Origin: Tissierellia bacterium
GTDB taxonomy: Bacteria > Bacillota > Clostridia > Peptostreptococcales > Acidaminobacteraceae
NCBI GenBank assembly: GCA_012727635.1
Contig: JAAYGQ010000022.1
Span: 1-42,013, forward strand
Direction of reading: 5' to 3'
DNA length: 42,013 nucleotides
The stretch's first letter is position 1. Each line of letters opens with the position of its first letter. This document shows, piece after piece, positions 2,643 to 25,819 of the stretch. The notes under the pieces were generated by a model. It was given only the letters and a program-made list of their open reading frames with translations. It was not told the DNA's origin and searched no databases. Both the position numbers and the translations under genes were made by a program.

Positions 2643-3287
2643 TTAAAACTTTCTATTTATTTGCTTAGGATCTCTTCCTAGGGGCACTGCTCCGCCAGCC
2701 ACTGCCCAAAGATAAAGTCCTGCTACCGTAGCATAGGGTGAGTAAACCAAGGAGAGTTCATCAAACTTGCTTTTGTTAAGTTTCTCAAGACCATAGACAA
2801 TGCCCATGCCCTTTCGAATGGCCAAATCACCAAAGCTGATGACATTGGGTCTTTGCATGGAAAAAATCAGTACCATCTGGGCTGTCCAGGGGCCAATTCC
2901 GTTAATCTTGCACAGCTCCTTTATCACCTCTTCATCGCCAAGAGAACGGAGTTTAACAAGATCCAGCGAACCTTCTTTCACACGATTTGCAAAATCAGTA
3001 ATGTATCCTGCCTTTCTAAAGGTGATACCAAAACTTTGAAGTTCTTCCTGAGACTGAGATAGAATGCTATCCACGGTAATGTTACCCAATCTGTCCTCCA
3101 TACGATTCCAGATGGTGGTTTTCGACGCCGTGGAGATTTGCTGACTTACAATCTGATGTACCATGGATGAAAACAGATCTGGGTTTACTGGTCGTTGTAT
3201 ATGCCCAACAAGATCAATCACCTGGCCCAAGAGTGGATCTTGCTCCTTTAAATAGTTTTTTTCTTTTTCTCCATAGGAAAAATACAT
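2643..3287 (-). CDS. DNA-3-methyladenine glycosylase II (AlkA-type HhH-GPD)
   Basis: A 214-residue base-excision-repair glycosylase. The helix-hairpin-helix motif INGIGPWTAQMV is at about 129-140, and the catalytic aspartate is Asp154 in SFGDLAIRKG, as in the AlkA/MagIII branch of the HhH-GPD superfamily. There is no four-cysteine iron-sulfur loop at the C terminus, which argues against endonuclease III or MutY. It would remove 3-methyladenine and other alkylated purines. GGAGGATAT lies just before the ATG. It is transcribed alone and diverges from the next rightward gene. The short form lacks the N-terminal TBP-like domain of E. coli AlkA. Confidence 0.88.
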   Translation of the reverse strand: MYFSYGEKEKNYLKEQDPLLGQVIDLVGHIQRPVNPDLFSSMVHQIVSQQISTASKTTIWNRMEDRLGNITVDSILSQSQEELQSFGITFRKAGYITDFANRVKEGSLDLVKLRSLGDEEVIKELCKINGIGPWTAQMVLIFSMQRPNVISFGDLAIRKGMGIVYGLEKLNKSKFDELSLVYSPYATVAGLYLWAVAGGAVPLGRDPKQINRKF

Positions 3288-3795
3288 TTGGATATCCTCC
3301 GCCTTTTGCTAAATATATGTAAGTGACCACTTTATAGTGTTAGTCTTTTCTCTTTAACTTCCAAAGCCCTTTCATTCCATTTATAAGAATTATATAGTTA
3401 GAGATTAAGCTTCCTTAGGATATATCTTAATGATCACAGCTAGTGAATTCACTATAGACAGAATATAAACGGATCATGGTTTCTCTAAGTAAGATTTACA
3501 TTCTTATCATCTCATATTATGGCTAAAGAATAAAGAAAGCAAATAAAACAAAAGATTTGCCTTAATATTTTAGAGTTCACCTTAAAAATAATAGCAGGGC
3601 ATCTAAATATAACAGACTAAAAAAGTATCCATCCCTAGGGGCAATCCTTGGGTGGATTTTATAATTGCTCCCTTATCTATAATACTTAACACGAATATCA
3701 TAGGATTCATATCAATTGATGGGAATTATTTCCTATAATAGGGTATATTAAAAGAAACATTGGAGAGCTATGCGAAAACTAAGAAGGAGGATTAT
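3288..3795. other. Divergent intergenic spacer of about 500 bp with palindromes
   Basis: No protein gene is visible. The spacer separates a leftward glycosylase gene from a rightward baeRF gene and should hold both promoters. It contains CACT-TTAT-AGTG (3328-3339), a perfect 14-base palindrome TAGTGAATTCACTA (3441-3454), an orphan hairpin at 3627-3657 and two TATAAT sequences (3678-3683 and 3734-3739), neither with a good -35 at standard distance. The palindromes could be operators, but there is no direct proof. Confidence 0.45.
3627..3657. terminator. Orphan terminator-like hairpin in the divergent spacer
   Basis: ATCCATCC pairs with GGGTGGAT (one G-T pair) around an 15-base interior. T runs follow on both strands: TTTT on plus and six T on minus (3619-3624). 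No gene ends here in either direction, so it could be an attenuator in the leader of the baeRF gene, the end of a small RNA, or chance. Confidence 0.4.
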
Positions 3796-4833
3796 ATGGC
3801 GAATATCAATATCAAAGAATTAGCAAAAACAAACGGTGGTATCTATGTAAGCATGTATTTACCCACCCACAGAAATGCCCCAGAGAATAAGCAAGACCGA
3901 ATTCGGTTTAAAAATCTTATAAATCAGGCGGAAAAAGAGTTACAAGATAATTTTGCGCTGAAAAACCCTTTGACCTTCCTTAAAGAAGCGGAAAAGCTCT
4001 ACCAGGATGTTATGTTCTGGACCCATGCATCCGATGGATTGGCCCTTTTGATTAGTGAGGACAATACTCGAATCCTAAAGCTCGAAGGACATATTCCTGA
4101 ACGTTTAGTGGTTGGAAGTCGCTTTCATCTTCTACCCCTTTTAAACTATTATGAGTTTATGAATGAATCCTATATTCTGGATATTGCCAAGGACCGCTTT
4201 AAACTCTACTACGGAGGCCAAGAGGGTATTATAGAAGTAGAGACAGCAGAGATTGATCAAAGCTTTAACGAACTTTTTGATGACAGAGACATTCAAAGCG
4301 ACAATCACCACTCCATGAGATCTTCAAAATCAGAATTGAATGAACTGGAGACGGAAAAATATCTTCGTTATGTAGCCAAGGGCCTAGGTAAGTTTATGCG
4401 TGGAGAAAGTATGCCACTACTGGTTTTTGGTACCACCGAGGTTGTCTCGGATTTTAAAGAATACAGCAAGGGGGAACTGGACATTTATCGCTTCTTTGAT
4501 AAGCCCCTGGGTTCTTTAAATTTAAATGAGATTTATCAAAAATTAAAAGAAATACTCCTCCCTCGCTATGAAAGAGAAATAGAGAGTTATTTATCGGTTT
4601 TAAACGATGAAATAGCCCGAGACCGGGGAACTGACAATGAATCCCTGGTGCTGCGAGAAGCTCCCTCGGGCAGAATCGAGTCACTTTTTATTGCCTCGGA
4701 TATGGGAGGCCTTATTGAAGAAGAGGCGGATAAACTGATTCAAAACGTCATTACCACCGATGGAAAAGTTATTCTTATTGATGAGAGCATAACGCCCTTT
4801 CCTATGGGTGTCGGGGCCATATTTAGATACTAG
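3796..4833 (+). CDS. Archaeo-eukaryotic release-factor-like protein (baeRF group)
   Basis: A 345-residue protein resembling the bacterial homologues of archaeal/eukaryotic release factor aRF1/eRF1 (the baeRF families; family 3 is the best fit from memory). Family features seen are VSMYLPTHR near the N terminus, QDRIRFKNLINQAE, DGLALLIS, RFHLLPLL, a YILDIAKDRFKLYYG hairpin, a helical middle part, SGRIESLFIA, and the C-terminal GAIFRY. The family is proposed to act in ribosome rescue or RNA-related hydrolysis, but its function is not settled. A GGQ tripeptide occurs at 140-142, yet it lies in the beta-hairpin, not in the loop (about 162-180) that matches the catalytic GGQ loop of eRF1; that loop has no glycines. 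The ATG at 3796 is chosen because AAGGAGG lies seven bases upstream; an in-frame TTG at 3760 lacks a site. Confidence 0.78.
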   Translation: MANINIKELAKTNGGIYVSMYLPTHRNAPENKQDRIRFKNLINQAEKELQDNFALKNPLTFLKEAEKLYQDVMFWTHASDGLALLISEDNTRILKLEGHIPERLVVGSRFHLLPLLNYYEFMNESYILDIAKDRFKLYYGGQEGIIEVETAEIDQSFNELFDDRDIQSDNHHSMRSSKSELNELETEKYLRYVAKGLGKFMRGESMPLLVFGTTEVVSDFKEYSKGELDIYRFFDKPLGSLNLNEIYQKLKEILLPRYEREIESYLSVLNDEIARDRGTDNESLVLREAPSGRIESLFIASDMGGLIEEEADKLIQNVITTDGKVILIDESITPFPMGVGAIFRY

Positions 4834-4843
4834 AATTTACACT

Positions 4844-4873
4844 ACCGGGACCGGCTTAGCCATCCCGGTTTTT
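4844..4873 (+). terminator. Terminator of the baeRF gene
   Basis: ACCGGGA (4844-4850) pairs with TCCCGGT (4863-4869), with inner GGC/GCC pairing, followed by five T. It sits 11 bases after the stop codon. Confidence 0.85.
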
Positions 4874-4907
4874 CATTGCTATAATTACTATATTTATAAA
4901 AATAAAA

Positions 4908-4916
4908 TGTTATACT
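4908..4916 (+). promoter_or_regulatory. Extended -10 promoter of the MFS gene
   Basis: TGT immediately precedes TATACT, an extended -10 element. No good -35 is present 17 bases upstream. It lies 22 bases before the ATG, so the leader would be short. Confidence 0.45.
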
Positions 4917-4937
4917 ATCCCATAGAAAGGAGTTTTT

Positions 4938-6281
4938 ATGAAAAGAGAAATGAAACTTAACTACCAAAACACAAGCCTTATTGGTTTTGGGTTTTTTGCC
5001 TCCTCCCTGGTCTGGGCAATCTATAATTCCTTTGTGCCCCTACTTCTTGAAGAGCGTTTTTTGCTAACCAGCACCAGCATTGGACTTATCATGACCATCG
5101 ATAATTTTTTCGGTGTCATTTTCCAGCCTCTAATAGGCTCTGTAAGCGATAAAACAGTGACGGCCCGAGGAAGACGTATGCCCTGGATTATTGTGGGCTT
5201 ACCCCTATCGGCCATTATATTTACCTTCATTCCCCGGATGTATACTCTTTTTTCTATGATGCTCGTAATCATAACCTTTAATATTCTAATGAGCCTCTGG
5301 CGAGCACCTGTTATAGCTCTCATGCCCGATGTGACCCCTAAGCCTCTTCGTAGTAAGGCCAATGGCGTTATCAATCTTATGGGGGGTATCGGATCCATTA
5401 CAGCTTTTTTACTGGGTGGCCTCCTTGCTAAAAAAAGTCCAGACCTATCTCTTCCTTTCTTATTTGCTACTTTAGTTATGTTTGCTTCACTGGTTGCGCT
5501 TATTGCCTTTGTTAGGGAGCCCGTTGGCCTTATTTTCCGAAAGAATAAAGGAGAAAAACTCAATCCTAGGGAAGACAAGCTTCTTGCAGAGGCCCAGGGC
5601 TTTGGTCTGGGAACCATTAAAGTGTCCTCCGATGCCAGTATTCTTACCGAGGATAAAAAAGAATTTCTTGCCCCCCTTAAAAAACTAAAAGTCGAAGAAA
5701 GAAGGAGTTTGTATTTTCTTCTTGGCGCTATTTTCTTTTGGTTTTGCGGTTTTAACGCCATTGAAACCTTCTTCACTCTCTATGCTACCAAGACCCTGGG
5801 TATGAGTAGCGGAAGTGCTACTATGACACTGGCTAGTTATTCTCTGGCCTTTTTGGTATTTGCCCTACCCTCGGGGATTTTAGCTGAGAAGTTTGGAAGA
5901 AAACCCCTTATCCTTACCGGTCTGGTGGGAATTATATTCATGTTTATCCCACTTCTATTTATACAAAATACTACCCTCATCACTATACTTCTTATTGGTG
6001 GCGGAGTCTTTTGGGCTTGTATAAATATAAACTCCCTGCCCATGGTGGTGGAAATGACCTCCGAAGAGAGCTTGGGATCCTTTACGGGATACTACTATTT
6101 TTTCTCCTTTAGTGCCTCTATCGTCTCCCCGGTTCTATTTGGTTGGATTCGAGATTTAACCCAAGACTACACTACTCTTTTTGCCTATTCTGTTATTGCT
6201 TTCTGTGTGGCCTTCGTCCTTATGATCTTTGTAAAACATGGTGACAATTATAGCTTGGCCTATAAGAAAACAGATGACTAA
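4938..6281 (+). CDS. MFS transporter, SLC45/sugar-type
   Basis: A 447-residue inner-membrane protein with about twelve hydrophobic spans in two halves, separated by a charged central loop (about 196-255). The cytoplasmic loop after span 2 has SDKTVTARGRRMPW, a DxxxxRxGRR-type major-facilitator motif, and the matching loop of the second half has AEKFGRKPLI. The RGRRMPW form and the TPKPLRSKANG segment resemble SLC45-type and glycoside carriers, so a sugar or glycoside cotransport role is plausible, but the substrate is unknown. AGAAAGGAG precedes the ATG. It lies between strong terminators, so it is a single-gene unit; its neighbour downstream is a regulator with a glycosidase-like domain, which fits a sugar theme. 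Confidence 0.82.
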   Translation: MKREMKLNYQNTSLIGFGFFASSLVWAIYNSFVPLLLEERFLLTSTSIGLIMTIDNFFGVIFQPLIGSVSDKTVTARGRRMPWIIVGLPLSAIIFTFIPRMYTLFSMMLVIITFNILMSLWRAPVIALMPDVTPKPLRSKANGVINLMGGIGSITAFLLGGLLAKKSPDLSLPFLFATLVMFASLVALIAFVREPVGLIFRKNKGEKLNPREDKLLAEAQGFGLGTIKVSSDASILTEDKKEFLAPLKKLKVEERRSLYFLLGAIFFWFCGFNAIETFFTLYATKTLGMSSGSATMTLASYSLAFLVFALPSGILAEKFGRKPLILTGLVGIIFMFIPLLFIQNTTLITILLIGGGVFWACININSLPMVVEMTSEESLGSFTGYYYFFSFSASIVSPVLFGWIRDLTQDYTTLFAYSVIAFCVAFVLMIFVKHGDNYSLAYKKTDD

Positions 6282-15426: not shown

Positions 15427-16068
15427 ATGGAAAGAGCACTATTGCATGCCAATTTACGTAAGGCGAACACCAGTGAGAATAAACAGCTTCGCAAAGACTT
15501 ACGTGTCCCTGCCGTACTTTACGGATCACACATTGATCCAAAACCCATTTCTCTTGGGCACACTGAATTAATCAAATTCATCCGTGATCATCACGTTGGA
15601 TCTAGCCTTAACTTAGAACTCGAAGGAGAAGAGTATTTTGTCATCCTTAAGGATGTTCAAACTCATCCCGTTAGAGGACATATACTCCACTTAGATTTTC
15701 AGGCCCTTCAAGCGGGAGAAAAGGTTCGCGTTACCATCCCTGTATTCCTACACGGCCTTGATAAAATCCACGATGATCTTATCGTCCAAGAGCTGAACAC
15801 GGAAATCGAACTTTCAGTTCTACCCCAGTTTCTTATCGACTCCATCATTGTTGATGTAAGTGAAGTCAAGGTTGGGGATTCCCTCAGTATCGCCGATCTT
15901 CCCATCAATAGCGATGAGAACTTCGAAGTATTCTCGAATCCTGACCAAATGATCTATACGGTCATGGAAGCTACCGTCTTCGAAGAAGCAGACGAAGAAG
16001 ACGAATCCAGTCTCTTTGATGTAGAAGATGCTACCAAGGAAGTGGATGAAGATGGTAAGGAAGATTAA
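15427..16068 (+). CDS. rplY: Ribosomal protein L25 / general stress protein Ctc
   Basis: A 213-residue protein of the long L25 (TL5/Ctc) type that binds 5S rRNA. The N-terminal RNA-binding domain (about 1-92) has LRKDLRVPAVLYG and the HILHLDFQAL segment; the C-terminal domain (about 95-185) has VTIPVFLHG, then SIIVDVSEVKVGDSLSIADLP. It ends in a strongly acidic tail. GGAGGAACT precedes the ATG. It is transcribed alone from a near-consensus promoter and ends at a strong terminator. The pth gene that often accompanies ctc is not here. Confidence 0.92.
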   Translation: MERALLHANLRKANTSENKQLRKDLRVPAVLYGSHIDPKPISLGHTELIKFIRDHHVGSSLNLELEGEEYFVILKDVQTHPVRGHILHLDFQALQAGEKVRVTIPVFLHGLDKIHDDLIVQELNTEIELSVLPQFLIDSIIVDVSEVKVGDSLSIADLPINSDENFEVFSNPDQMIYTVMEATVFEEADEEDESSLFDVEDATKEVDEDGKED

Positions 16069-17841: not shown

Positions 17842-18540
17842 TTACAAATCAAGGGCAATCTCCATCATCTGAGTAAAGGTTTCCTGGCGATCCTGGCTGC
17901 TTGTCATTTCGCCAGTGGGGATCAAATCGGAAACAGTGCAAATCACGAGAGCCTGGATATTGTTTTTAGCCGCTTGTGTTAGAAGCTCAGCGGCTTCCAT
18001 CTCAACGCCCAAAACACCATACTCAGCCCAGCGCATAATATCTTCGTCGGTATCATCATAAAAGGTATCACTGGACAAAAGGCTGCCCACATGAACCGGT
18101 ACACCCATTTCCTTGGCCTTTAAATAGGCCTTTTGGACCAGCTCAAAACTGGCTGTTGGGGCGTAGGTATTACCATAAAAACGACGGGAAATCATTTTTG
18201 AGTTTGTACAGGCACTCATGGCGATGATGACATCTCTCAGTTTCACATTGGGGCCAATGCCTCCGCAGGAACCGATGCGCACAAGCTTCTTACAGCCATA
18301 AACATGAATAAGTTCGTGAATATAAATTCCCGCCGAAGGCATACCCATACCGGTTCCTTGAACCGAAACGGCTTTACCCTTGTAGGTTCCTGTATAGCCC
18401 CACATTCCCCGAACGGTATTGTACTGCACTGCATCTTCTATAAAAGTTTCAGCGATAAATTTTGCCCGTAGGGGATCTCCCGGTAGCAAGACAAATTCTG
18501 CAATGGCTCCCTTGGGTGCCTCAATATGATAATGACTCAT
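17842..18540 (-). CDS. deoD: Purine-nucleoside phosphorylase (DeoD type)
   Basis: A 232-residue enzyme that splits purine nucleosides with phosphate to a free base and ribose 1-phosphate; the DeoD type is hexameric. Motifs seen are [16 protein letters not shown] near the N terminus, RIGSCGGIG for phosphate binding, [13 protein letters not shown] for ribose, and the catalytic aspartate in [12 protein letters not shown] with the arginine of DRQETF further on. It overlaps the end of the pullulanase gene by 20 bases and has GAGGAGGAAAA before its ATG. Ribose 1-phosphate could be turned to pentose-phosphate intermediates by a phosphopentomutase, which is not in this window. Confidence 0.94.
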
Positions 18541-20314
18541 TTTTCCTCCTCTTTAGCACCACGGATTCCAGCGGTGCAATCCATTCTTTCTTTGTTTCAA
18601 CACCAAGTAAATCAACCTTAAAGTTTAATAGATAAAAAGTTCCTTCGCTTAGGGGAAGCTTTTGAATTTCTGAAGTTGGATTGTGGCCAATAAAAAGTTC
18701 CTCCTCACCTAGATCCAGGGTGTAATAAATCATTGGACTTTCAGGATAAAGGTAAAGGCTTTCTCGAATCTTCTGAGCATCGTAGTCCCCTAGATTGAAA
18801 AGTCTTCGAAGTCTTAAAAGCCCCCGAACCAGATCCACTAAATCTTTTTCTTTCACACTTTGTTTCCAACGAATATGATTGTTCCAGTCGCCGGATTTAT
18901 AACTATTGTGATCCATGGATTTCGAGCGCATAAATTCTGTGCCTGCATGGATAAAACAAATTCCAAAACTCAGCAGTTGAATAGAAAAGCCTAGGGCTGT
19001 TCTCATTTTGATCAGTTCATCGCTTTCAACGGTACTGAGAAAGAGTTTATCATAAAGAATTAAATTATCATGACAACTCATATAGTTGGTGGTTTCCCAG
19101 GGCTCCTGGGTATAACCGAAAATTCCTGGAGAAAAGTCAATATCTCCCACAATCCCCGTTAATACATGGTTTCTTGATAAAAGATTGTTCTGGATATAAC
19201 CCTTGGTCGTATCATCATTTCTGCCCCGAAGCCCATCTCTGAAGCGATCGTTAAAAAGGGCATATTCTTTGCCTCTTTGGGCGCCATAATGAATAAAGTG
19301 ATCGGGCTGATGTCCAAATCCCCAGGGTTCGCCATAAATTAGAATATCAGGATGGATCCTTCGCAGGCTAGTGACAATTTCCTCTGCAAAGTCTTTTATC
19401 ATGAGCCCCCAAAGATCAAAACGAAAACCATCGATTTTAAATTCTTGGACCCAGTAAAGTAGACTTTCAATAATCAATTTTTGCACATAGGGCTTGGAGG
19501 TGTCAAGTTCATTGCCACAGCCCGAGCCATTAACAAATTCTTCTCCCTCCATGCGGTAGTAATAACCCGGAGCCAGAAGTTCAAAGGAGCTATCCAAGGT
19601 TCTAAAGGTGTGATTGTACACTACATCCAGCACCACACCCAGTCCCATACCATGTAAATGCATTACCGCCTTTTTTATCTCCGAAAGAGCCCTATTGGGC
19701 TCATCCACAGCCACTAGGTAGCCTCTGTGGGCAGCAAAGTAAAACTCCGGGTCATAGCCCCAGTTGTAACCCTCTTCCCCTTCAAGGCTCATTATGGGCG
19801 TTACCGGTAGAAGATGGACATGGGTAACTCCCAAAGAGGCCATATAGTCGGTTCCAATGAGATTGCCTTTGTATTTTGGACTTTCACACAGAGCTAGAAA
19901 TTTACCCGGGTTCTTAAAATCCATACGGGGATCCATGGAAAAATCCCGAAGATGCTGCTCATAAATCACTGCCTTTTTAAAACTGAGGCGGGGAAATCTA
20001 TGTTGGCGAAAACCCGGGGGATCACTATTTTTGTCCACCACTAGAATTCCTTTTTTTGCTTTGTGGGATAGGTACTTTGCATAGGGATCAATAATAAGTT
20101 CCTCATCCTTTATAAATCCATAGCCCCAACCCTCATAATCGCCTTTTAGACGAAGTTCAAAGACCTCCCCCATCTTTTCCATGGCATATAGTATGTGTTC
20201 CTCTTTTTCGGCCTCAGGAAAAAGGGCAAGGCTAAGGGTTTCATGGGTTGAAAAAACTCGGAATACCCAGCTCTCATCCTCGGGATAAGCCCCCAATCTT
20301 CTAGAGTCCTTCAT
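18521..20314 (-). CDS. Type I pullulanase (GH13)
   Basis: A 597-residue debranching enzyme of family GH13 that cleaves alpha-1,6 links in glycogen, amylopectin or pullulan. YNWGYDP (about 181-187) is the type I pullulanase signature. The four GH13 regions are DVVYNH (about 229), GFRFDLWG with the nucleophile aspartate (about 294-301), YGEPW with the acid/base glutamate (about 325), and SCHDN (about 412). A CBM48-like N-terminal domain precedes the barrel. No signal peptide, so it is intracellular and suits glycogen breakdown. The ATG at 20314 has GAGGAACTCT before it; another ATG at 20326 lies in the glgA 3' end without a site. It overlaps glgA by 14 bases and deoD by 20. Confidence 0.9.
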
Positions 20315-21725
20315 AGAGTTCCTCATAAAGAGCGGCGGATTCTTTCCAGCTTAGATCTTTCTCCATGGCTTGTTTTACAATCTTCCACCAATTTTGGCTA
20401 TCTTTATAATGATACAAAGCGTCCTTAATAGCAAAAAGAAGTTCATGGGCATTGTAATTATCAAAGGCAAAACCCGTTCCTAGACCGGTATATCGGTTGT
20501 AAGGAATCACTGTATCGGCCAGACCACCGGTTTTTCTTACAACGGGTATGGAACCATAACGCATGGCAATAAGCTGACCCAGGCCACAGGGCTCAAAGCG
20601 CGAAGGCATTAAAAAGATATCGCAGGAACCATAAATCTTCCTTGCCAGACTCTCACCAAAGAGAATATGGGTACTGACTTTTTGGGGATATTTGTTTTGA
20701 AAATATACAAACTGGTCTTCAATGGCTCTGTCTCCACTACCAAGAAGAATAAACTGCACATTTTCTTCCATTAGTTCATCAAAAATAAAACTTAATAGAT
20801 CCAGTCCTTTATTATCAACAAGCCGAGTAACCATGGCCAGCATAGGGATGTTTTGGTCTACGGTAAGTCCCATGGCCTTTTGAAGAGCCATTTTATTTTC
20901 TAGGCGGCGCTCGGGAAAGCTGCTATTAAAATTCACCCAGAGCTCACCATCGGTGGAGGGATTGTATTCGTCATAGTCTATCCCATTGACAATGCCAACA
21001 AGTTTTTCTTTTCGGTGCTGCAAAAGCCCATGGAGCCCCTCGCCAAAATAGGGATAGGTAATCTCCTTGGCATAGCTTCTTGAAACCGTCGTTACCACAT
21101 CGGCAAATTGAATGCCGGCCTTCATAAAATTGAGAGAACCATAATGCTCCAGCTTTTCATAGGTGAAATAACTATCATCCAGTCCCAGGTAATCCTTCAT
21201 GATACGATAGGGAAATATACCTTGATACTTTAGATTGTGAATGGTAAAAACCACTCTGGTGTTTTTAAATTCATCGCGCCAGGCGTAGCTGTTCTTAAAA
21301 AGTGCTGCCGCTGCACCGGTATGCCAATCATTTAAGTGCAGTATGTCAGGATAGAAATCCACTTCTTCCATAAGCCTTAGAATGGCATGGGAAAAAAACG
21401 AGAAACGCTCACCATCGTCGTACTGTCCATAGAGGCTGTCTCTGAAAAAATAATGTTCATTGTCAATAAAGTAATAGGTTACCCCTTCAAGCTTATGAGA
21501 AAAGACCCCGGCGTACTCCGTGCGAAGGGGCATCTTAACATGAAAAGCTCCCAAATAATCAAAGTTTTCACGAAGCGCAGGATTGGTGCGCTTAAAAAGA
21601 GGGATGACAACTCTTACATCATGGCCTCTTTTGGAAAGCTCTTTAGGTAGAGAGTGGAGCACATCGGCAAGGCCTCCAGATTTTATATAGGGCGAAGATT
21701 CGCTGGCTGCAAAAAGAATTTTCAT
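20301..21725 (-). CDS. glgA: Glycogen synthase
   Basis: A 474-residue GT5 enzyme that transfers glucose from ADP-glucose to the growing glycogen chain. The N-terminal KSGGLADVLHSLPKEL (about 16-31) is the ADP-glucose-binding signature, FTIHNLKYQG and LHLNDWHTGAAA lie in the first half, and SRFEPCGLGQLIAMRYGSIPVVRKTGGLADTV carries the nucleotide-binding glutamate in the second. Bacterial GlgA is of this length. Its ATG overlaps the glgD end by 4 bases. It acts with GlgC/GlgD, which supply ADP-glucose, and GlgB, which branches the chain. Confidence 0.95.
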   Translation of the reverse strand: MKILFAASESSPYIKSGGLADVLHSLPKELSKRGHDVRVVIPLFKRTNPALRENFDYLGAFHVKMPLRTEYAGVFSHKLEGVTYYFIDNEHYFFRDSLYGQYDDGERFSFFSHAILRLMEEVDFYPDILHLNDWHTGAAAALFKNSYAWRDEFKNTRVVFTIHNLKYQGIFPYRIMKDYLGLDDSYFTYEKLEHYGSLNFMKAGIQFADVVTTVSRSYAKEITYPYFGEGLHGLLQHRKEKLVGIVNGIDYDEYNPSTDGELWVNFNSSFPERRLENKMALQKAMGLTVDQNIPMLAMVTRLVDNKGLDLLSFIFDELMEENVQFILLGSGDRAIEDQFVYFQNKYPQKVSTHILFGESLARKIYGSCDIFLMPSRFEPCGLGQLIAMRYGSIPVVRKTGGLADTVIPYNRYTGLGTGFAFDNYNAHELLFAIKDALYHYKDSQNWWKIVKQAMEKDLSWKESAALYEELYEGL

Positions 21726-22840
21726 AAAATTCTAGCTCCTTTCCCTACAAAGTATGGCAAACCACCATCTCCCATCAATACACGGCCATTGCCAATAAAA
21801 CTTCGCTTATCTAAAACGGCAAAATTAATCTGGGCATCATCGCATATGTTGGCTCCTTGGAAGACAACGGAATTTCTTATCACAGCATTTTTCCCCACAT
21901 GAACATTTCTAAAAATAATCGAGTTTTCTACCGTGCCCTGGATAACGCAACCATTGGCCACTAGGGAGTTTTTAACTTGACTGCCACTCATGTAGAGGCT
22001 ACTGGGCGCATCCTTAGTCTTTGTAAAAATATTCCCGTTTTTATAAAACAGTTCCTTGGCGTGCTCGGTCTCTAAAATCCTTAGAGACGCATTGTAATAC
22101 TGCTGCATAGAATAAATAGGAAGAACCTCTTCTTCTAGAGAGTGGGTAATGACTTTGTAGCTTTGAAGTCTTCGCTTAATGGCCCCACTAAGGGATGACT
22201 CCCTTCCCTCCTCCAGGGCTTCTCTGACGATTTCTAGGAAAATTCTCTTTTTTATAAAATACATCTCAATGCCTAGCTCAAACTCCTGTTGATTTCCTAG
22301 GTTTCTTCCAATATAAACCTTTTCTCCGTCCTTCATTAGAATATCCAGGCCCAAAAGGTCAACCCGGGTCTTTCCATTCTTTACATTTTTTGTAAGAACG
22401 GTAATGTCTGCATCATTTTGTGCATGGATAGCAAAGGCGGATTTAAAATCAATATTACCAACGTAGTTGCTCCTGGTCATCAGGATATGGTCCACTTTCA
22501 TTTTTTCAAAATAAAGCAGATTGCTTCTTAATCTTTGTAGATCCCCTTCAAAGGCAGTCTCTTCTTTAATATCAGGATAAAGTACTCTAAGACCACCGGT
22601 TTTACGATCCAGATCCCACCATTTTCCGAAACTCAAATGATCGTTTAGGGAATGGAATTTATCCTTAACTAAAATAGAAACATTCTCGATATCGCTATTG
22701 ACCATACTAGAAAGCATAAAGTCGATAAGACAATAGCGCCCGGCAAAGGGAACCGTTGCAAGAGGTCTGAACTGGGTGAGTTCTTTAATATAAGTTTCAC
22801 GCTCCCCAAGATTTATTAAACCTGCTACTTTCATTTTCAT
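21722..22840 (-). CDS. glgD: Glucose-1-phosphate adenylyltransferase-like subunit GlgD
   Basis: A 372-residue homologue of GlgC. The N-terminal nucleotide-binding loop reads VAGLINLGERETYIKEL and lacks the GGxGxRL phosphate loop of true pyrophosphorylases; GlgD of Gram-positives partners GlgC and modifies its activity, with little activity alone. The middle keeps FAGRYCLIDFMLSS and GGLRVLYP, and the C-terminal part has the left-handed beta-helix repeats (VIQGTVENSIIF, NAVIRNSVVFQG). It begins 9 bases after glgC, with GAGGGAACC before the ATG. Confidence 0.92.
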   Translation of the reverse strand: MKMKVAGLINLGERETYIKELTQFRPLATVPFAGRYCLIDFMLSSMVNSDIENVSILVKDKFHSLNDHLSFGKWWDLDRKTGGLRVLYPDIKEETAFEGDLQRLRSNLLYFEKMKVDHILMTRSNYVGNIDFKSAFAIHAQNDADITVLTKNVKNGKTRVDLLGLDILMKDGEKVYIGRNLGNQQEFELGIEMYFIKKRIFLEIVREALEEGRESSLSGAIKRRLQSYKVITHSLEEEVLPIYSMQQYYNASLRILETEHAKELFYKNGNIFTKTKDAPSSLYMSGSQVKNSLVANGCVIQGTVENSIIFRNVHVGKNAVIRNSVVFQGANICDDAQINFAVLDKRSFIGNGRVLMGDGGLPYFVGKGARIL

Positions 22841-22849
22841 GGTTCCCTC

Positions 22850-23980
22850 CTAAAGTATCAGTCCATGATCTACAGAACCAAAGATAGTAATTTCGCCATC
22901 ACCAAGCTTTGTACCTTCTTCTACATCTTCGTGGCTAAGGACAATAACCCGCTTAAGTACGGCGTTTTTGCCAATGTGGGCTCCCGGTAGGAGAATGCTG
23001 TCTTCTACATAGGCGCCCTCTTCCACCACAACAGAAGTGCTCAGTATACTGTTTTTTATATTCCCATGTACAATACAGCCCTCATTGATAAGGGCTCTTT
23101 CCACGTGACAGGTCTCGGAAAGGTACTGGGGAGGTACATCATAGTTTTTCGTATAGATTCGCCAGTCTTCATCAAATAGATTTAGTGTATTCTCCGGGTC
23201 CAATAGGTCCATATTTGACTGCCAATAACTTTCTACCGTACCCACATCTCTCCAATATCCCGCATAATTATAGGCGTAGAGACGTCGCCCTTCTTCCAGC
23301 ATTCCGGGAAGAATATTCTTACCAAAGTCATGGAAAGAATCGGGATTGTCGTGATCTTTTATCAGCCACTCCCTCAGAATTTTCCAATCGAAGATATAGA
23401 CTCCCATGGAGGCCAAATCATTTTTGGGCTCTTTTGGCTTTTCTTCAAACTCGTAAATGCTACCATCTTCTCTTGTATTAAGAATACCAAAGCGACTGGC
23501 TTCATAGAGGGGAACAGTGATGGCACTGATGGTGACGGCGGCCTCTTTTTCAATATGAAACTCCAGCATCTTTCTATAGTCCATCTTATAGATATGATCT
23601 CCTGAAAGAATGAGTACATATTCAGGGTCTTGAATGTCGATATAATTTAGGTTTTCATAGATTGCATTGGCGGTTCCATCGTACCACTGGCCCCCCTCGG
23701 TGGTCATATGGGGGGGAAGGATCTCTACACCACCCTTGTGACGATTGAGGTCCCAGGGGCCACCGATGCCAATATGCATACTAAGGGCCAGGGGTTGATA
23801 CTGGGTTAGTATCCCTACATTGGTTATCCTTGAATTTGCGCAGTTGCTTAGAGCAAAGTCAATGATGCGGTATTTCCCTCCAAAATGCACTGCGGGCTTT
23901 GCGTTTTTTTCCGTCAATTGTTTTAGTCTTGCGCCTTGACCTCCTGCTAGAAGCATGGCGATCATTTTATCTTTAATCAT
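22850..23980 (-). CDS. glgC: Glucose-1-phosphate adenylyltransferase (catalytic subunit)
   Basis: A 376-residue ADP-glucose pyrophosphorylase, the committed step of glycogen synthesis. It has [21 protein letters not shown] at about 11-31 with the arginine and lysines of the active site, [17 protein letters not shown] for glucose 1-phosphate, [11 protein letters not shown] with the metal-binding aspartate, and beta-helix repeats at the C terminus. The intact GGQGxRL loop contrasts with GlgD. It overlaps the end of glgB by 8 bases, so the genes are translationally coupled. Confidence 0.95.
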
Positions 23981-25751
23981 GTAACACCTCCAGAATCATT
24001 CCGCTATAGGGGGCTAATCCTACCATAATATGATCTTTAGCCTCCAATGGGCCAAAGGATCCCCTCCCTTTTCCGCCGTACTCTTCCCCATCGGAATTAA
24101 GAAGAACCCTATAGGTACCCGGTTCCAGGTTTACTCTGTGCTCAAAGAGATCCTTTGATGAAAAGTTTAAAAGTATAACAACGGATTTTCCCTCCAGATC
24201 TATTCTCTTAAAGGCAATAAAATTCTGTTGGGTATTATCCACATCAATCCAGGAAAACCCTTGCCAATTTTCATCGTTGTCATGAAGAGCAGGCTTTTTG
24301 TGATAGAGAAGATTCAAGTCCCTAACAAAGGTCTGTACACCCAAATGGGAATAAAAATCTAACAGATTCCAGTCCAGGGTCGTAAAGGCATTCCATTCAG
24401 CAAATTGCCCAAATTCTCCCCCCATAAAGAGCAGTTTTTTCCCCGGCATAGAATATTGATAGAGATGAAGAAGTCGCAGCTGAGAAAATTGCTCTTCATA
24501 GCTTCCCCTCATTTTGGAAAGAAGAGAGCCCTTCATATGAACGACCTCATCATGGCTTAGGGGCAAAAGAAATTTTTCACTAAAGGCATAGACCATGGGA
24601 AAGGTCAAGAGATTGTGATGTTGACTCTTACTAAAGCCATCCATTTTAAAATATCGCAGAGTATCATTCATCCATCCCATATTCCATTTGTAATCAAAAC
24701 CAAGGCCGCCCTGCATCAAGGGCTTTGTGACTCCTTCATGATCCGAGGAGTCCTCGGCAAAAAGTAGAATTTTCCCCTTTAGCTCAGCGGTGAGTTCCTT
24801 TAAAAACTCCAAGGAGTGGCGGTCGATTTCTTTACTGTCCTCTTTTCGAAAAAGCATATGGGCCACGGCATCGACCCGGATGCCATCTATACCATATTCT
24901 TTCCATAGAAAAATTAAATTTCCGATAAGAAAATTGCGCACATGGCGCCGACCAAAATCAAAATTCATGGTATCCCACTGAGGATTATAGGCATCTTCCC
25001 AAAAATCACTCTCATAAAGAGCCGAACCATCAAAATAAGAAAGTCCCGGAGCGTCGGTTATAAAGTGGCAGGGAACCCAGTCGAGAAAAACGGCGATGCC
25101 TCTTCTATGGGCTTCTTCCACAAAGTACTTAAAATCCCAAGGGTCTCCATGGCGGCTGGTTATGGCGTAGTAGCCACTTTGCTGATAGCCCCAGCTGCCG
25201 TCGTAGGGATGCTCGGTGATGGGAAGAAGTTCAATGGCGTTGTAACCCAAATCCTCTACATAGGGAAGAAGGCTGTGGGCCAATTCTTGATAACTTAAAT
25301 ATTCGCCCCCTTCTTTCTTTCTCCAGCTGCCAAGATGCACCTCATAAATCGAAAGGTTTTCACCCAAATCCACTTTGGCTTCCCAGGGAAAATCCTTAGT
25401 ACGATATAAAATACCTGGGCTTTCCTGACCCCATCGAATCTTTTTAGCATAGGGGTCGGTTTTCCAAACTTCCTGTCCATTCTCCCCCAGGATGTGGTAT
25501 TTATATAGTTGACCTTCCTCTGCCTCGGGGATAAAGGTGCAATAATATCCGTGCTCTATGGGGACCATGGGATGGGCTCCCGGTGTCCATTGGTTCCACT
25601 CGCCTACCACGGAGATTTCCTTGGCCCGAGGCGCATAGACAAGAAAGCGAAACTCATCATCAATATAGTGGGCGCCAAAAATTTCCGCTCCCCCATAGAA
25701 AACTCCCTCACGATAAGCTCGTAAATCTTCTAAAGCAGGTAATACTTTCAT
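23973..25751 (-). CDS. glgB: 1,4-alpha-glucan branching enzyme
   Basis: A 592-residue GH13 subfamily-9 enzyme that cuts alpha-1,4 chains and rejoins them as alpha-1,6 branches. A CBM48 domain fills the first 110 residues ([20 protein letters not shown]), then the barrel with [20 protein letters not shown] (nucleophile aspartate), LFAEDSS (acid/base glutamate) and [26 protein letters not shown]-type segment [17 protein letters not shown] is typical of GlgB. The ATG at 25751 is chosen for the AAGGAGGG site; an extension to 25781 has none. It is the first glycogen gene, 68 bases after dapF. Confidence 0.94.
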
Positions 25752-25819
25752 CTTATCCCTCCTTTGCCCTAATATACCCAATTCTTGCCGGGATCATGAT
25801 AGATTTTTTCTAAGAGGCC

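Follow-up and report, generated by a model that had tools for sequence, protein, structure and literature searches.

For bacterial proteins of the aeRF1 superfamily (baeRFs), a role in ribosome rescue or inhibition has been proposed by Burroughs and Aravind (2019, PMC6514570). In 2024, a bacterial protein of the aeRF1 type, Balon of Psychrobacter urativorans (AOC03_06830; PDB 8rd8, 8rdv, 8rdw), was reported to bind ribosomes along with EF-Tu(GDP), whose role there was called undefined (Helena-Bueno et al., PMC10901736). According to the same work, Balon is located in the A site without NIKS and GGQ, and its features include an HP motif at the decoding centre, a bL27 trap loop and a C-terminal beta-hairpin that recognises EF-Tu and is highly conserved among Balon homologues. 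Here, we analysed a gene in a stretch of 42,013 nucleotides of Tissierellia bacterium (contig JAAYGQ010000022.1; hereafter the window, the whole stretch of DNA under analysis). The product of this gene is probably a Balon-like member of the aeRF1 superfamily that is non-catalytic and acts in ribosome hibernation. The ribosome rescue role that an initial annotation had given to its family has since been overtaken, for the superfamily, by the hibernation described for Balon.

Gene structure and family assignment

The gene occupies positions 3796-4833 on the plus strand and encodes 345 residues followed by a stop, as indicated by ORF translation and by Pfam, NCBIfam, phmmer and profile searches. 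Four Pfam models exceed their cut-offs, i.e. baeRF_family3 with 68.6 bits (cut-off 31.5), family8 with 64.8 (27), family6 with 35.0 (27.5) and family7 with 32.1 (27.2), which together with the reading frame bears out the 345-residue baeRF-type protein initially annotated. These models for families 3, 6, 7 and 8 (Burroughs and Aravind 2019) overlap on the protein, and nothing excludes it from them. The sole match in NCBIfam is the Balon family model NF052287 (E 1e-35), whose equivalog cut-off is not reached (123.9 versus 330 bits); the same model matches 30/30 members of a profile made of relatives at E <= 0.01. Among solved structures, the one relative that phmmer recovers at E up to 10 is Balon (8rd8_B), aligned with residues 5-226 of the window protein at E 2.1e-13. 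The 30-relative profile aligns with Balon at positions 6-379 of 379 (E 1e-48), and homology to Balon covers, by family profile, the whole length and all three domains. The mycobacterial Balon homologues Msmeg1130 (PDB 8v9j, 8v9l) and Rv2629 belong to the same superfamily and are distant, the profile matching 8v9j at E 0.001; Rv2629 had no structure among the matches of the structure searches. Two Rho GTPase chains also matched by the profile (E 0.83-0.90) were dismissed as chance. All domain statements made here rest on sequence profiles; a structure prediction from the window protein and its nearest relative alone was unusable (mean pLDDT 31.8, pTM 0.24).

The start codon ATG at 3796 lies 5 nt downstream of a Shine-Dalgarno sequence, AAGGAGG, read at 3784-3790 (plus strand), whose position favours this start over an alternative TTG at 3760 that would add 12 residues. 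Upstream, 508 bases separate the gene from the end of a divergent gene at 3287. Downstream, a likely intrinsic terminator at 4844-4873 (plus strand; stem 4844-4850/4863-4869, then a U run) was missed by a pattern scan with a loop limit of 8 and found by folding energy against shuffles (-15.2 kcal/mol, z -3.8); the next gene begins past it, at 4938. This hairpin and U run after the stop suggest that the gene is probably transcribed alone, and the spacer and terminator agree with its earlier description as standing alone after about 500 bases. No promoter is claimed, as the promoter-like sites found by scanning 3200-5000 number 2, fewer than the 5.8 expected, and Rfam returned no match over gathering scores anywhere in the window. 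The gene is intact and constrained: over 345 codons compared with the nearest relative, pN is 0.151 and pS 0.802, i.e. amino-acid change is restrained at saturated synonymous sites. It is present in one copy in its genome (2.08 Mb, 250 contigs, 92% complete).

Matches were present in 35/198 genomes of the window's order, 13/41 of its family, 31/398 of its phylum and 22/391 of its class, these samples overlapping. After removing duplicates and two bad rows, 77 rows were aligned (75 relatives, Balon and the window protein), a sample in which the best-scoring matches and the order, class and phylum of the window are over-represented. Rows dropped comprise L044, a 188-aa fragment, and duplicates sharing identical C-terminal 250 residues; L103, whose segments look like those of an ordinary bacterial release factor matched by chance, was excluded from later counts. 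Outside the counts are also L073 (no usable ORF), G058, G018, G049, G009 (no full-length locus), and G518 and the second places of G546 and G459 (no locus). The nearest relative, L001, comes from Clostridiales bacterium DTU036, and its protein is a duplicate of that of G102, which is listed as the same genus. One scan of viral contigs confirmed no viral relative.

The GGQ tripeptide and the release-loop position

Like Balon, the window protein lacks the NIKS tetrapeptide and a catalytic GGQ. It does hold a GGQ at residues 140-142 (4213-4221, plus strand), within YYGGQEG as initially reported, at what the alignment suggests is the turn of a middle-domain beta-hairpin. The idea that this displaced motif might matter did not survive comparison, GGQ being found at this place in 0/76 other aligned rows, and the two other members of the genus reading GSR (YYGSREG) and GNH (YYGNHEG). 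Position by position, the 76 other rows match residue 140 (G) in 33 cases, residue 141 (G) in 1 and residue 142 (Q) in 8; L061 carries GNQ there, one step from GGQ, and GGQ occurs elsewhere, at scattered positions, in 6 of these rows. In a profile-profile alignment, the stretch around residue 140 corresponds to the aRF1 segment that precedes the catalytic loop, which is consistent with the earlier placement of GGQ away from that loop and points to a chance turn sequence. The tripeptide thus apparently plays no role. A peptide-release factor acting through GGQ 140-142 from an unusual position is barely conceivable: it has the presence of the tripeptide in its favour, and against it stand the disagreement of all other rows, genus mates included, and a distance of about 30 residues from the aRF1 GGQ position.

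The equivalent of the aRF1 GGQ loop, or of the lasso loop of Balon, is placed by alignments at residues 162-180 (4279-4335, plus strand), where it is shortened. A profile built from four rows, two of them pieces of archaeal aRF1 and the other two zinc-ribbon baeRFs, aligns with the 30-relative profile at probability 98.3 (E 1.9e-14). In this comparison, the aRF1 GG column falls at about residues 172-173, where the alignment is loose, and the GGQ equivalent is predicted at about 172-174 (4309-4317, plus strand). The translation confirms that residues 162-180 hold no glycine. Over the stretch 162-184, the window protein is the only row of 77 without glycine, and at 23 residues, against a median of 35, its loop ranks second among the shortest. 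The loop of L001 is 7 residues longer and reads ANFQGHQ, and that of L004 reads ILHGQ.

Loss of the loop had been presented as surprising. Loss of the catalytic motif is, on the contrary, given as usual for most baeRF families (PMC6514570) and for Balon (PMC10901736), and a conserved loop glutamine seems to be missing from most baeRF-1 families (Burroughs and Aravind 2019, PMC6514570). Since the loop is lost as in this published norm, a non-catalytic plug of the A site is the best reading, and the initial expectation of ribosome binding without peptide release appears likely from the absence of GGQ at the loop.

Two side observations concern the loop in relatives. HG followed by Q or H recurs in 43/77 rows and is absent in Balon and in the excluded L103; the available text of PMC6514570 and PMC10901736 was found to hold no discussion of it. 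Besides, archaeal aRF1 (PDB 4af1, 3agk) and the zinc-ribbon proteins L071 and L072 (1501-2640 in each; L071 is of Pfam family 10), with which the profile alignment runs over the whole length, differ from the window protein in this region: aRF1 has GGQ at the loop (KHKMGGQ) and L071/L072 have GGW (KHKKGGW), a tryptophan replacing the catalytic glutamine in a loop otherwise aRF1-like.

Absence of the C-terminal insert

The more unusual difference from Balon, overlooked in the initial annotation, is located in the C-terminal domain, where an insert of about 20 residues carried by Balon and most relatives is absent at residues 300-309 (4693-4722, plus strand; alignments). The segment bounded by residues 296 and 318 of the window protein is 23 residues long, and its counterpart in Balon 43. 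Eleven of the 77 rows are insert-less in this way, with 21-23 residues (the window protein, L001, L004-L008, L063, L066, L068 and L069); the remaining rows have at least 40 residues at the site, which is occupied by a zinc ribbon in L071 and L072, and Msmeg1130 also has residues there. Where aeRF1 has its zinc ribbon, many baeRF families have an insert of two strands (PMC6514570), which implies that other families lack this insert and that its absence is not new in itself. From its position, the missing insert would correspond to the EF-Tu-binding beta-hairpin of Balon. No treatment of Balons without the hairpin was found in the titles and displayed abstracts of the papers listed for Balon and baeRFs.

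In the 77-row tree, one starred set (99) comprises the taxonomic family of the window, seven rows in all, and another (100) comprises the four rows of a different family. All seven members of the former, across three genera, are without insert. On this tree, two changes of the insert are required, forced by the starred branches. In a 39-row subset picked after the 77-row tree had been seen, keeping the 11 insert-less rows as one group comes at a cost of 0.80 log units (p-AU 0.472). One common loss is thus not rejected, and two independent losses are not claimed. As a side observation, every genome with an insert-less Balon has a small listed size, 1.4-2.1 Mb (the window clade, L063, L066, L068 and L069).

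The loss of both loop glycine and insert could mark relaxed selection in a gene that is degenerating after loss of function, as the loop is 7 residues shorter than that of L001 and members of the clade have no insert. This is quite improbable, given an intact frame flanked by a Shine-Dalgarno sequence and a terminator, the low pN against saturated pS, and the fact that the insert is missing throughout a set of seven proteins kept across three genera.

A more compact C-terminal domain without insert would also suit a Pelota/Dom34-like non-catalytic rescue factor, which would split or clear stalled ribosomes instead of storing them. The Pelota C-terminal domain is also compact. Further points in the same direction are weak matches of 2/30 profile members to the pelota model (best E 0.0017), the proposal of rescue or inhibition for baeRFs (PMC6514570), and the absence of a tmRNA over the Rfam cut-off in the 92%-complete genome, so that a need for rescue is possible. 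Against these, the closest solved relative is by far Balon, the family profile finds no pelota or aRF1 chain among solved structures at E up to 10, and a model search with the window protein itself yields no pelota match at E up to 1, so that we regard the Pelota-like role as unlikely. The genome does give 5 weak tmRNA matches below the Rfam cut-off, and the absence may reflect assembly loss.

Genomic context and proposed role in hibernation

A conserved neighbourhood was considered and rejected, as 11 stretches (one species represented twice), whose genes were identified in part, show no general conservation of neighbours. The DTU036 relative shares with the window only an HhH-GPD neighbour, and the third member of the genus shares no neighbour in the stretch seen. 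Neither raiA nor a stress gene was recognised adjoining the window gene, the lack of a recognised stress gene being a further difference from Balon. DNA glycosylases of three families (HhH-GPD, Fpg and methyladenine glycosylase) adjoin or lie near insert-less Balon genes, which may be chance; they are encoded at 2646-3287 in the window, 4714-5475 in L075 and 3796-4359 in L079, all on the minus strand. Similar glycosylase genes are present in L078, L080 and L081, and the same grouping recognised none in L074, L076 and L077. Elsewhere in the window are a bL25 gene with a TL5 C-terminal domain (15427-16068, plus strand) and a gene run resembling glycogen metabolism (18521-25781, minus strand), named by eye from translations and comprising branching enzyme, two glgC/glgD-like genes, glycogen synthase and a gene of debranching type.

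By homology to Balon, the window protein would act in hibernation through binding to the A site. Under stress, it would enter a vacant ribosomal A site, where the decoding centre would receive its N-terminal domain and the loop of its middle domain would lie next to the peptidyl-transferase centre. The ribosome would be blocked without release of the peptide. At the decoding centre, the His-Pro dipeptide of Balon aligns with Ala28-Pro29 of the window protein, so that Ala-Pro would stand in place of the HP motif if, as we assume, the motif is this dipeptide. The genome encodes an HPF-type protein (on another contig), bL27 and EF-Tu, so that the published hibernation machinery is present.

We also consider, tentatively, that a Clostridia-type group has discarded the EF-Tu hairpin, and the window species the glycine-bearing loop as well, and that it hibernates ribosomes without EF-Tu. 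Ribosome binding by the window protein without EF-Tu is offered here as a prediction. If true, EF-Tu would be dispensable for Balon-type hibernation, contrary to what has been inferred from hairpin conservation in the work on Balon. Moreover, natural insert-less Balons would uncouple ribosome binding from EF-Tu binding, and the question of the role of EF-Tu would become testable without engineered mutants.
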